NCBI RefSeq assembly: GCF_900188225.1 | Contig: NZ_FZOC01000002.1 | Location: forward strand, 1 to 64,000 | Direction of reading: 5' to 3' | DNA length: 64,000 nucleotides | From: Humidesulfovibrio mexicanus | GTDB lineage: Bacteria > Desulfobacterota > Desulfovibrionia > Desulfovibrionales > Desulfovibrionaceae | Part shown: piece by piece, positions 7,173 to 12,905 of the stretch | Layout of the letters: every line of letters begins with the position of its first letter | Numbering within the stretch: position 1 is the first letter of the stretch | Notes under the pieces: generated by a model | Database searches by the model: none | What the model was told of the DNA's origin: nothing | Seen by the model: only the letters and a program-made list of their open reading frames with translations | Made by a program: the position numbers and the translations under genes

Positions 7173-8369
7173 TCAGCACCCGTGCTTCGGTTTTCGGAAA
7201 TGCTTGCGGTTGAGCATGAATACCAGCCACATGGTGGCGAACTGAAGCGCCAGGCCGGGCGCTGTAAGCGCCCAGTAAGCGAAGGAGAACTTCGCGACCA
7301 GTCCGGCGTCCGCAAGACCCCGGTTGAGCCAGAACTGCAGCATGACCACCAGGGCCACGCCTGGACACACCAGCGCGTAGGAGCCCGGCGAACTCTCCGG
7401 GCCGGTGACGAACCGCTTCGCATAGCCCAGTTTGTTGAGGATGGCCCCCGCGAACAGGCCGAAGAGCAGTTGCGCGGAGAGAAACTGCGACAGCGCCATG
7501 AGCCGGTCGCCCGCACCGCTGTCCAGGGCGAAGTGTTCGTGCAGCCCGTGGCCCTGCCGCAGGCTGAGGATGGCCACGATGGTCAGCACCGGGATGAATA
7601 CGGAGAGCGTGGGCGCGGTCTCGATGTCGGCCCCGTGTTCCAGAAGCGAGCGCAGGCCCAGCAGCAGCGCCGTGGCCCCGGTAAGCGCCGTGGCGACCAG
7701 GAAGAACGTGGACAGGACGAGTCCGGCGCCGGAGATGGGGGCCACGGAGGACAGGCCGGCCGGGGCCGCAAGGCCGACGCCCACCATGGCCAGGGCGAAG
7801 GCGGGCAGGGCCTGGGCAAAGGAATTGTTGGCCGCGCAGTTGAAGCCGCCCGCAGTCAGCACCCGGACATAGAAGCGCCCCAGCATCCGCAGAACCATGA
7901 CCCCAATGGCCAGGAACACTACGATGGCCGCCGGGAACAGATACTCGACCACGCTCCACAGGCCCGGAACCAGCACCAGGCCGAGGATGAACAAGACGTT
8001 GACGTTCATGCCCAGGGCCAGGGGCAGGGCCAGCAGCTGCGTCTCGCCGTTGGAGGCGATCAGCTTGGCGTGCTCGCCGCCGCCTTTCCAGGCGCGGTAG
8101 CGCTGCAGGTTCCAGACAAGCAGCTTGATGTTGAGCACGGCGTAATACACGATTCCGGCCACGGCCAGAAGCAGCATGGCGCGCATGGCCAGGTCCCCGG
8201 CTTCGAAGGCTTTGGCGATGTCCTCGAAGACGGGGACGCTTTTGCCGGGGTGCGGAGTCCAGTGCATGAGCCACATGAAAAAGGTGACCGCGAGCCCCCC
8301 CGCGCCAAGGGATGACAGGAAGTAGAGCGGGGAATAGCCGTCTGGATCGGTCGTTGTGGATGCAGCCAT
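7173..8369 (-). CDS. Multi-pass membrane protein, possibly SLAC1/TehA-like
   Basis: This 398-residue, very hydrophobic protein has about ten membrane segments. It starts at MAASTTTDPDG, with GAGG 6 bases upstream; longer in-frame starts have no ribosome site. The alternating helices and short charged loops resemble tellurite-resistance/dicarboxylate (TDT) carriers, but similarity is weak. A conserved-looking stretch with a cysteine (GGFNCAANNSFAQ) lies mid-protein, and the last residue is cysteine. It sits 91 bases downstream of the selenocysteine peroxiredoxin on the same strand, so a shared transcript and a link to oxidative stress or thiol chemistry are possible. Function unknown. Confidence 0.6.
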   Translation of the reverse strand: MAASTTTDPDGYSPLYFLSSLGAGGLAVTFFMWLMHWTPHPGKSVPVFEDIAKAFEAGDLAMRAMLLLAVAGIVYYAVLNIKLLVWNLQRYRAWKGGGEHAKLIASNGETQLLALPLALGMNVNVLFILGLVLVPGLWSVVEYLFPAAIVVFLAIGVMVLRMLGRFYVRVLTAGGFNCAANNSFAQALPAFALAMVGVGLAAPAGLSSVAPISGAGLVLSTFFLVATALTGATALLLGLRSLLEHGADIETAPTLSVFIPVLTIVAILSLRQGHGLHEHFALDSGAGDRLMALSQFLSAQLLFGLFAGAILNKLGYAKRFVTGPESSPGSYALVCPGVALVVMLQFWLNRGLADAGLVAKFSFAYWALTAPGLALQFATMWLVFMLNRKHFRKPKHGC

Positions 8370-8460: not shown

Positions 8461-9072
8461 CTAGTCGAAGGCCTTGTCCACGGTCCAGTGCTCCCAGACC
8501 TTGCCCACAAGGCCGACGCCGGGGGTCAGCACCGGCTTGCCGGGCCGCCAGCCGGACGGCGTGGCGTTTGCGCCCTTGCTCTCCCGAACCAGCTGGAAGG
8601 CCTGGATCTCCCGGATCGTCTCCTTGACGTTGCGCCCCACGGGAGGGGCCACCACCTCAAAAGCCTGCACCACCCCGTCGGGATCGATGAGGAAGCGGCC
8701 GCGCACGTCCACGCCTCCGGTTTCGTCATAGACTCCGTACAGCTTGCCGATGTTTCCGCCCGCATCGGTGAGCATGGGGAAGGGCACGGTCTTGGCGGTG
8801 ACCATCTTGGAAAGTTCGTCGTCCACCCACATCTTGTGCACGAACATGCTGTCCGTGCTCATGGAAAGGACCTGGACTCCCAGCTTGTCGAATTCGGGAT
8901 GCATCTCGGCGACCGCCGAGATCTCGGTGGCTCAAACGAAGGTGAAGTCGCCGGGGTAGAAGCAGAGCACCACCCACTTGCCGAGGTAGTTCGACAGCCT
9001 GACCTGGGTGAACGCGCCGTTGAAATAGGCCGGGGCGGCGAAGTCCGGCGCCTTCTTGCCGATTTGGATCAT
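8461..9072 (-). CDS. Selenocysteine-containing peroxiredoxin (AhpC/Prx1 type), UGA read-through
   Basis: Two open stretches (9072-8935 and 8931-8461) are in the same frame, separated only by TGA at 8934-8932. The context is [15 protein letters not shown], where AhpC-type enzymes have FVCPTEIS. The stop therefore falls exactly on the peroxidatic cysteine (residue 47). A hairpin 11 bases after the UGA has a GGUC loop like bacterial SECIS elements. With Sec inserted the product is 203 residues, the normal family length. The C-terminal CP(A)xW resolving-cysteine motif is replaced by TPSGWRPG, so the enzyme would act with one Sec and need an external thiol. The chosen ATG 9072 has AGGAG 8 bases upstream. 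A second strong site (GGAGG) precedes an in-frame ATG at 9180, which would add 36 residues. Family role: reduces peroxides. A decayed gene is unlikely because both halves are intact. Confidence 0.82.
8905..8920 (-). promoter_or_regulatory. Candidate bacterial SECIS hairpin
   Basis: Just after the in-frame UGA, the RNA reads CUCGGC-GGUC-GCCGAG: a perfect 6-pair stem with a 4-base loop starting GGU. The loop begins 18 bases after the UGA. Known bacterial SECIS elements have the apical loop about 16-37 bases downstream with G in its first two positions, and the E. coli fdhF loop also carries GGUC. It would recruit SelB. Confidence 0.72.
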
Positions 9073-9210
9073 GGGACGCTCTCCTTGCGGTTGTGGTGTG
9101 GAGGATGGCTGCGCGGGCTTTTGCTCCGCTTCGATTTCAACGCCTGGCCGCGAACAGGCGGCCGACAATTCTTCTCCCATAGCGTTCCTCCAAAGTTGAG
9201 GGTTTTAATA

Positions 9211-9370: not shown

Positions 9371-10276
9371 ATGAACCCGACGCCCACAGGAACCACAAGC
9401 ACCCGCATCGGCTGGATCGGCACCGGCGTCATGGGCCTGTCCATGTGCGGACACCTCATGGCCGCAGGCCACCCGGCGACGGTGTTCAACCGCACCGAGG
9501 CCAAGGCGCGGCCGTTGCTGGACAAGGGCGCCGCCTGGGCGGAGAGCCCCCGCGCCGTGGCCGAGGCCTCCGACGTGGTGTTCACCATCGTCGGCTACCC
9601 GGACGATGTGCGCCGCGTGTATTTCGAGGCCAACGGCGTGCTGGCGGGCTTGAAGCCCGGAACCATCGCCGTGGACATGACCACCACCAGCCCCAGCCTG
9701 GCCGTGGAGATTTTTCAGTCGGCCGGGGCCAGGGGCGCGCACGCCCTGGACGCGCCCGTGTCCGGCGGGGACGTGGGCGCAAAGAACGCCGCCCTGTCCA
9801 TCATGGTCGGCGGGGAGGCCGAAGCCTTTGCGGCGGTGCGGCCCTTGTTCGAGCGCATGGGGCGGATCATTCTGCACCAGGGTCCGGCCGGGGCGGGGCA
9901 GCACACCAAGATGTGCAACCAGATCGTCATCGCCGGGAGCATGATCGGCGTGTGCGAGAGCCTGCTCTACGCCACACGGGCGGGGCTCGACCCCCAGGCC
10001 GTGCTTGCGGCCATCTCCAAGGGCGCGGCGGGGTGCTGGAGCCTGGACAACCTGGCCCCGCGCATTCTGAAGGGCGACTTCGCGCCGGGCTTCATGATCG
10101 AACATTTCATCAAGGACATGGATATCGCCCTGGAGGAGTCCCGGCGCATGGGGATTACGCTGCCGGGCCTGGCCCTTGTGGAGGGTTTGTACGCCGAGGC
10201 GGCCAGGGCCGGACACGGCAAAAGCGGCACCCAGGCCCTTTTCCTGGCGCTGGAGAAGCTGGCCGCCAGGGCATGA
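9371..10276 (+). CDS. NAD(P)-dependent beta-hydroxyacid dehydrogenase (3-hydroxyisobutyrate dehydrogenase family)
   Basis: This 301-residue protein has an N-terminal Rossmann fold with GWIGTGVMG at 14-22. The substrate motif is DAPVSGGDVGAKNAALSIMVGG, and the family's catalytic lysine lies in GAGQHTKMCNQ. The helical C-terminal half is complete. Family role: oxidation of a 3-hydroxyacid such as 3-hydroxyisobutyrate, tartronate semialdehyde or glyoxylate; the substrate cannot be assigned. The ATG has AGGAG at good spacing. It diverges from the peroxiredoxin gene and lies 59 bases upstream of an ABC permease pair with no clear functional link. Confidence 0.88.
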   Translation: MNPTPTGTTSTRIGWIGTGVMGLSMCGHLMAAGHPATVFNRTEAKARPLLDKGAAWAESPRAVAEASDVVFTIVGYPDDVRRVYFEANGVLAGLKPGTIAVDMTTTSPSLAVEIFQSAGARGAHALDAPVSGGDVGAKNAALSIMVGGEAEAFAAVRPLFERMGRIILHQGPAGAGQHTKMCNQIVIAGSMIGVCESLLYATRAGLDPQAVLAAISKGAAGCWSLDNLAPRILKGDFAPGFMIEHFIKDMDIALEESRRMGITLPGLALVEGLYAEAARAGHGKSGTQALFLALEKLAARA

Positions 10277-12239: not shown

Positions 12240-12905
12240 ATGGCCGCCACGCGTTCCGCCGAACCCCACCGCACGCGCTACCCCGCCCACGAGGTCCGGC
12301 ACCCCTGGCTTTCGGCCCTGCTGGACGCCTACCACATTTCCGACACCGCCGCCCGCGAGGAATTGGCGCGGGAGACCGCCCGCCGCGCCGCGCCGCCCGC
12401 TTGCGGGCCGGGCTGCTCCGTGTGCTGCGAGGGGCAGGTGATCCCGGTTTCGGTATTCGAGGTGCTGGGCCTGTGGTGGTATGTTGCGGAGATGCTCAAG
12501 GGGCGGGCCAGGCACGGCGTGCGGAAAAATTTGCTGGAGCGCGGGGCCGAGGACACGCGGCCGACGCCTGTCGCCTGCCCGTTTCTGGTGCGGCGCTCCT
12601 GCGCGGTGTATCCGGTCCGGCCCTTCATTTGCCGCCAGCACCATGTGTTCGGGCGGCCCTGCCAGCCGGGGGAGAACCTGCGCCAGGCCCGCCCCGGCGA
12701 CATCTTCAACACCGCCCAGGACCGCGCCAGGGACATGGCTTGGCTGCTGTTGCCCCTCTACGGCGTGGCCCAGGACGACATTGATCGCCGCTTCGAGAGG
12801 GGGTATGTGCAAGGCCGCAGCCGGGATCTGCACTCCCTGCCGCTTGCCAATCTCGTCACCCACATGGACGCCGCGGCGAAACGGAAGACCGACAACCATG
12901 CTTGA
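12240..12905 (+). CDS. YkgJ-family cysteine-cluster protein
   Basis: This 221-residue soluble protein carries CGPGCSVCCEG near residue 55, a CPF cysteine and a C-terminal pair in SCAVYPVRPFICR. This cysteine spacing defines the YkgJ/UPF0153 group, thought to bind zinc or an iron-sulfur cluster. Biochemical function is unknown. Its stop overlaps the recN start by 8 bases, so translation of the two may be coupled. Confidence 0.78.
   Translation: MAATRSAEPHRTRYPAHEVRHPWLSALLDAYHISDTAAREELARETARRAAPPACGPGCSVCCEGQVIPVSVFEVLGLWWYVAEMLKGRARHGVRKNLLERGAEDTRPTPVACPFLVRRSCAVYPVRPFICRQHHVFGRPCQPGENLRQARPGDIFNTAQDRARDMAWLLLPLYGVAQDDIDRRFERGYVQGRSRDLHSLPLANLVTHMDAAAKRKTDNHA

Follow-up and report, generated by a model that had tools for sequence, protein, structure and literature searches.

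The window analysed here is a 64,000-nt stretch of a Humidesulfovibrio mexicanus contig. On its minus strand, a reading frame from position 9072 is open to the stop codon TAG at 8463–8461, and its sole interruption is TGA at 8934–8932. This interval (8461–9072, 203 aa) had been described in an earlier note as a selenocysteine peroxiredoxin. The reading stood and the interval covers the core of the protein, but an in-frame 36-codon extension from ATG 9180 had been left out; the N-terminal arm, the lost resolving Cys and a possible second start had been overlooked. The long reading of the gene, prxU (8461–9180, minus strand), has 239 residues, with selenocysteine (Sec) as residue 83 (core residue 47). 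Gene finders that treat UGA as a stop would miss prxU.

The UGA codon (8932–8934, minus strand) was assigned to Sec from the frame, the alignment and the homologues. As claimed before, the frame is open on either side of the TGA with both flanks intact, and alignment with PDB chains of Prx1/AhpC proteins placed the UGA where AhpC/Prx1-type enzymes have their peroxidatic Cys. Translation gave the active-site motif TFVU, which fits TxxU. The core scored 382.1 bits against the NCBIfam PrxU equivalog NF040737 (cut-off 270), and the whole-genome search with this model gave a PrxU match of 386.7 bits over model positions 2–232 of 233. The Pfam models AhpC-TSA and 1-cysPrx_C gave 131 and 25 bits against the core, respectively. 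The AhpC equivalog TIGR03137 was rejected at 177.8 bits, below its cut-off of 272.

The core was modeled by AlphaFold at high confidence as a Prx1-type fold, and arm residues 1–34 had pLDDT values below 50. Foldseek matched the core to Prx1, Prx2, Prx4 and AhpC structures (E about 1e-20 for typical 2-Cys AhpC/Prx1), including PDB 3tkp (mammalian Prx4). AhpC-TSA matches occurred at seven places in the genome, the window gene included; one paralogue (L122) is of the ordinary kind, with Cys47 and a resolving Cys in the motif CPAKW. The window gene very probably encodes a Sec-containing PrxU, a Prx1/AhpC-type peroxiredoxin.

Sohling et al. reportedly described PrxU in 2001 as a selenocysteine peroxiredoxin of Eubacterium acidaminophilum. 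The window gene is an ordinary new PrxU, and this kind of selenoprotein has been known since 2001. It shares with the E. acidaminophilum PrxU and NF040737 a Prx1/AhpC core, a TxxU active site and a score over the equivalog cut-off. It also has a 36-aa Cys-bearing arm and a proposed second start; the comparison covered five arm-less relatives (see below). Counts of Sec peroxiredoxins have since been published for the Sargasso Sea (2005, PMC1088965) and for genomes (2006, PMC1794560), and a 2026 review places them before its 'predicted' rows with the 2001 paper cited (PMC13188914). Because Sec peroxiredoxins were already in print, the finding as first stated adds a member to a known family. The accessible text of the literature searched, which included PMC8533274, PMC9312934 and few subscription journals, held nothing on the arm or the second start. 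Three features were not met in that text: the thiol swap pattern, the internal start and the absence from congeners.

Conservation of the UGA codon, its hairpin and the selenocysteine machinery

We collected 197 homologous sequences (196 loci and the window), which gave 193 unique cores. Codon 47 was TGA in 178 of them, TGC in 8 and TGT in 7. The proposed match to PrxU was thus borne out by the equivalog score and by a UGA conserved across the family. The nearest PrxU relatives found, at no more than 85%, came from sulfate reducers, Desulfomicrobium among them. Across the phylum, 130 of 395 genomes had a PrxU match above the cut-off; within the family, 41 of 288 did.

The earlier note had staked its reading on the presence of selA, selB, selC and selD. 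All four were found over curated cut-offs in the genome (3.52 Mb, 15 contigs, 100% complete by a computed estimate): tRNA-Sec at 86 bits (cut-off 47), SelB at 381 (242), SelA at 603 (268) and SelD at 320 (125). The SelD gene (G000:C3:126342–127268, L048) contains one in-frame TGA, so the SelD of this genome is probably itself a selenoprotein. Judged from these sequences, Sec insertion in this strain is extremely likely.

After the UGA there are 9 nt, a stem strand ATCTCGGC (8922–8915), a GGTC loop (8914–8911) and a second stem strand GCCGAGAT (8910–8903). Folding and the family alignment identified them as a SECIS-like hairpin of 8 bp with a GGUC loop (8903–8922, minus strand). The bacterial SECIS rules, as given in the accessible text of the 2026 review, are a loop of 3–9 nt, an upper stem of 4–16 bp, a spacing of 16–37 nt and a G in the first two loop positions (PMC13188914). 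The window hairpin, with its 4-nt loop GGUC, 8 bp and a loop beginning 17 nt after the UGA, agrees with them. The hairpin announced in the earlier note was therefore confirmed, but its distance of 11 bases from the UGA was about 2 nt off. An Rfam scan of the 64-kb window returned two tRNAs and nothing else.

Taken alone, the window hairpin was unexceptional. Stems of at least 8 bp occurred in 20.4% of 5000 synonymous shuffles that kept the peptide and the codon bias, and the p value of its minimum free energy was 0.115 (2000 synonymous shuffles). Such a result would also be expected if the TGA were a nonsense mutation or a sequencing error in an ordinary Cys peroxiredoxin. Since such a hairpin is no surprise given the peptide and its codon usage, the case for it rests on the family. 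Cores below 43% identity were dropped for this test, leaving 178 UGA and 11 Cys genes. Stems of at least 7 bp were present in 115 of the 178 UGA homologues versus 0 of the 11 Cys homologues, a contrast into which kinship is mixed, the Cys genes being mostly distant and only one of them (L156) arm-bearing. The loop began 17 nt after the UGA in 149 of 178 genes, and the dominant loops were AGTT (80) and GGTC (67). In total, 1187 of 1424 helix cells were paired, versus 978 ± 10 after column shuffles; sliding one arm of the hairpin by 1 or 2 columns gave four totals of 429–548 paired cells out of 1424. Helix pairs covaried among the UGA homologues, for example with GC, AT and CG at one pair and GC, CG, TA and AT at another. 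A nonsense mutation or sequencing error is contradicted by this family conservation, with 178 of 193 homologues carrying UGA at this codon, by the complete Sec machinery in the genome and by a hairpin that accompanies UGA rather than Cys. We regard it as improbable in the extreme.

A UGA can act in two ways in any Sec gene, and it might here be read mostly as a stop, giving a truncated regulatory product under selenium shortage. Many columns after the Sec position are invariant, which argues that the full protein is under selection and makes the mostly-stop reading very improbable. If the UGA is read as Sec, SelB on the hairpin just downstream would bring Sec-tRNA to 8934–8932. In the resulting enzyme, the selenol would attack the peroxide to give a selenenic acid, which would be reset by a thiol; the name of the NCBIfam model points to thioredoxin as the likely final reductant.

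One arm-bearing homologue, L156, carries TGC in place of the UGA, and its best stem is 3 bp. It represents the long form with a naturally occurring Cys.

The N-terminal arm and the cysteine residues

The open frame extends back to ATG 9180, which lies behind a GGAGG Shine-Dalgarno sequence (9187–9191, minus strand). The extension encodes a 36-aa arm (9073–9180, minus strand) that consists of a conserved Cys/Pro motif followed by a variable E/K/P/T/Q linker. The motif had the consensus MxEExxVGCxRPTGGxVxE, and its Cys and Pro did not vary among 20 chosen sequences; by sequence and alignments, the arm Cys, which is Cys9 in the long form, is encoded at 9154–9156 (minus strand). Because the seed pattern of the arm motif contained the Cys, its occurrence in 125 of 125 sequences there is circular. 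The linker was rich in E, K, P, T, A and Q, with 0.4% aromatics, and is predicted to be disordered and flexible. AlphaFold gave no position for the arm, hence no arm geometry. Diversity at the three codon positions of the arm was 0.36, 0.35 and 0.70 (138 sequences), indicating that the arm is translated and selected as protein. The NCBIfam model includes the arm, long matches beginning at about position 2 of 233, so the arm is already present in databases.

An arm profile run against 118 genomes gave 23 matches at E values up to 0.1, 18 of them below 0.01. Seventeen of these 18 were at known PrxU places, and one (G080) was a broken-off PrxU start, which ends abruptly near the end of its locus. 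Five PrxU relatives had no arm when read upstream: L086, L087, L089 and L090 from Caloranaerobacter, Clostridia and Alkalibacter, and L088 from Atribacteria.

The window PrxU resembles typical 2-Cys AhpC/Prx1 enzymes (L122; PDB Prx2 and AhpC) in fold and active-site motif. It differs from them in having Sec for Cys, Thr for the C-terminal resolving Cys, and an extra Cys37 and arm. The Thr codon at the canonical Prx1/AhpC resolving position is at 8560–8562 (minus strand), where VCPxxW is replaced by ATPSGW; the resolving Cys in the C-terminal VCP motif that defines typical 2-Cys enzymes is thus absent. Cys37 (Cys73 of the long form), a PrxU-specific residue ten residues before Sec, is encoded at 8962–8964 (minus strand). 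In lacking a Cys at the canonical resolving position, the protein is like 1-Cys (Prx6-type) peroxiredoxins, but the PrxU model fits far better and extra thiols are present at Cys37 and in the arm.

To count the thiols, 189 of the 193 unique cores were kept at an identity of at least 43%, and L091, L070 and L222 were then left out as broken, truncated or odd, which gave 186 sequences. Arm-bearing rows were recognised by the arm Cys in all counts, weak motif matches were called by hand, three labels were set by hand (L081 with arm, L087 and L090 without), and a Cys at the canonical position or next to it counted as the C-terminal resolving Cys. An arm Cys without a C-terminal resolving Cys was found in 129 sequences, both in 9, the C-terminal Cys only in 26 and neither in 21; L079 was the single unassigned row. 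The resolving Cys was thus present in 9 of 138 sequences with the arm Cys versus 26 of 47 without it, an anti-association with a Fisher p of 7e-12, not corrected for kinship. Cys37, in the motif LCFYPGDF, occurred in 137 of 138 sequences with the arm Cys versus 16 of 47 without it; kinship inflates all of these co-occurrence counts. On the tree, the arm trait changed 7 times and the C-terminal trait 9 times, and independent-pairs comparison of the arm Cys with the resolving Cys gave 2 pairs on well-supported branches, too few for power.

Two sequences within the arm-bearing part of the tree, L171 and L172, had no arm upstream and had a C-terminal Cys. Their pattern fits a thiol swap, possibly a swap back, and represents one event at best.

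The arm Cys could be the resolving thiol, an assignment that we make tentatively from the pattern of residues. If the arm works in this way, this branch of peroxiredoxins would have relocated its resolving thiol from the C-terminal end to a flexible arm at the N-terminus. Mammalian Prx4 suggests a different role. It is a secretory Prx1-type enzyme that keeps the canonical resolving Cys, and its Cys-bearing N-terminal extension ties subunits together or docks a partner. The window PrxU resembles it in being of Prx1 type with a Cys-bearing N-terminal extension; Prx4 has no Sec. By analogy, Cys37 or an outside thiol might resolve Sec, with the arm tying subunits or docking a partner. Of 138 arm-bearing forms, 137 have Cys37, which is ten residues from Sec; 21 of 186 forms have neither an arm Cys nor a C-terminal Cys, and 16 of 171 arm-bearing forms (discovery and held-out sets) retain a Cys at the C-terminal position or next to it. 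The anti-association of the arm Cys and the C-terminal Cys, with the kinship caveat above, speaks against this Prx4-like reading, which we nevertheless consider quite plausible.

Predictions were recorded before the remaining family loci were fetched and before ten already-collected loci were inspected. The held-out set had 43 loci, of which 4 were duplicates and 1 had a match that did not include codon 47, leaving 38 new loci: 33 arm-bearing forms, chosen by eye from upstream readings, 4 short PrxU forms and 1 ordinary Cys protein with CPAKW. All 33 arm-bearing forms had Cys37, and the C-terminal Cys was absent from 26 of them; the remaining 7 were all CPSGW forms. The four short forms had no arm, as predicted. 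The seven arm-bearing forms that keep CPSGW (L226, L227, L229, L231, L240, L247 and L256) run against a simple trade-off of the two thiols.

The internal start codon

An ATG at the start of the core (9070–9072, minus strand) is the proposed start of a short isoform, and an AAGGAG Shine-Dalgarno sequence precedes it at 9081–9086 (minus strand). The in-frame ATG was kept in 137 of 138 arm-bearing genes. A match of at least 6 nt to AAGGAGGTGA at −18 to −4 was found ahead of 120 of these 137 internal ATGs, versus 35.6 ± 4.1 in synonymous shuffles (maximum 47 in 200); other in-frame Met codons had such a match in 31 of 779 cases. The matches peaked at −10 to −5, and the linker background was 0.25% per position. 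When the discovery set was clustered at 75% identity, all 12 clusters had such a match. A core ATG placed behind a Shine-Dalgarno sequence suggests two isoforms, and both starts may well be in use. If the second start works in this way, prxU would be a two-isoform selenoprotein gene using internal initiation.

In the held-out set, 31 of 33 arm-bearing forms had the internal ATG, and 20 of these 31 had a Shine-Dalgarno match of at least 6 nt. Overall, the link with Cys37 held fully, and the predictions of a missing resolving Cys and an internal start held in most but not all sequences, the internal start being weaker than in the discovery set. One long form, L258, reads ATA at the internal start position and keeps the preceding AAGGAG.

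The same data bear on readings with a single product. All protein might start at 9180, with the internal ATG and its Shine-Dalgarno sequence either left over from an ancestral short gene or acting as a site of ribosome pausing. Short PrxU forms do begin at the core ATG, the internal ATG is missing from two held-out long forms, and in 11 of the other 31 no 6-nt Shine-Dalgarno match precedes it. A relic should have decayed, however, and a Shine-Dalgarno sequence conserved in all 12 clusters, far above synonymous expectation, counts against this reading, which we hold possible but on the doubtful side. The opposite case, a single product from 9072 with the upstream codons as an untranslated or rarely translated leader, would agree with an internal Shine-Dalgarno sequence that equals the upstream one in many genes. 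It is improbable given the coding-type third-position variation of the arm, its conserved Cys/Pro motif and its own Shine-Dalgarno sequence in most genes.

With both starts in use, two in-frame forms would be made, one from ATG 9180 with the flexible Cys-bearing arm and one from ATG 9072 with the core only. In the long form, the arm Cys and the neighbouring Cys37 would take over the role of the lost C-terminal resolving Cys. The full combination, two selenoperoxidases from tandem ribosome-binding sites together with the replacement of the C-terminal resolving Cys by the arm Cys and Cys37, is rather unlikely as a whole. If it were true, the ratio of arm to core forms and the mixing of subunits would set how the oxidised selenium is reset.

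Neighbouring genes and distribution

Directly adjoining prxU downstream, on the same strand, is a gene for a non-Sec membrane protein of the TsoY family (7173–8369, minus strand). It scored 486 bits against NF047644 (cut-off 150); the selenoprotein model NF047643 gave 48 bits and its cut-off of 250 was not reached. TsoY adjoined PrxU in 3 of 197 sequences, the window, L051 and L055, with short flanks in many of the sequences. In 14 other genomes of the genus, 7 of them at least 90% complete (8 of 15 when the window genome is counted), we found neither PrxU over the cut-off nor TsoY. The absence of both from these congeners suggests a joint gain of PrxU and TsoY, or a joint loss elsewhere. No redox partner was recognised beside prxU among the five window neighbours scanned, one of which (12240–12902) matched no model.

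Across 189 PrxU loci, recurrent neighbours were a Fur/PerR-like regulator (19), a CoA-disulfide-reductase-like flavoprotein (18), desulfoferrodoxin (10), rubrerythrin (10) and catalase (7). One representative of each neighbour type was named by HMM, with the PerR, CoA-disulfide reductase and catalase models below cut-offs. The family context is weakly enriched and points to an oxidative-stress setting in a minority of PrxU loci. At 9371–10276 (plus strand), the window carries a gene of the tartronate semialdehyde reductase/3-hydroxyisobutyrate dehydrogenase kind, which scored below the equivalog cut-offs and is transcribed away from prxU.
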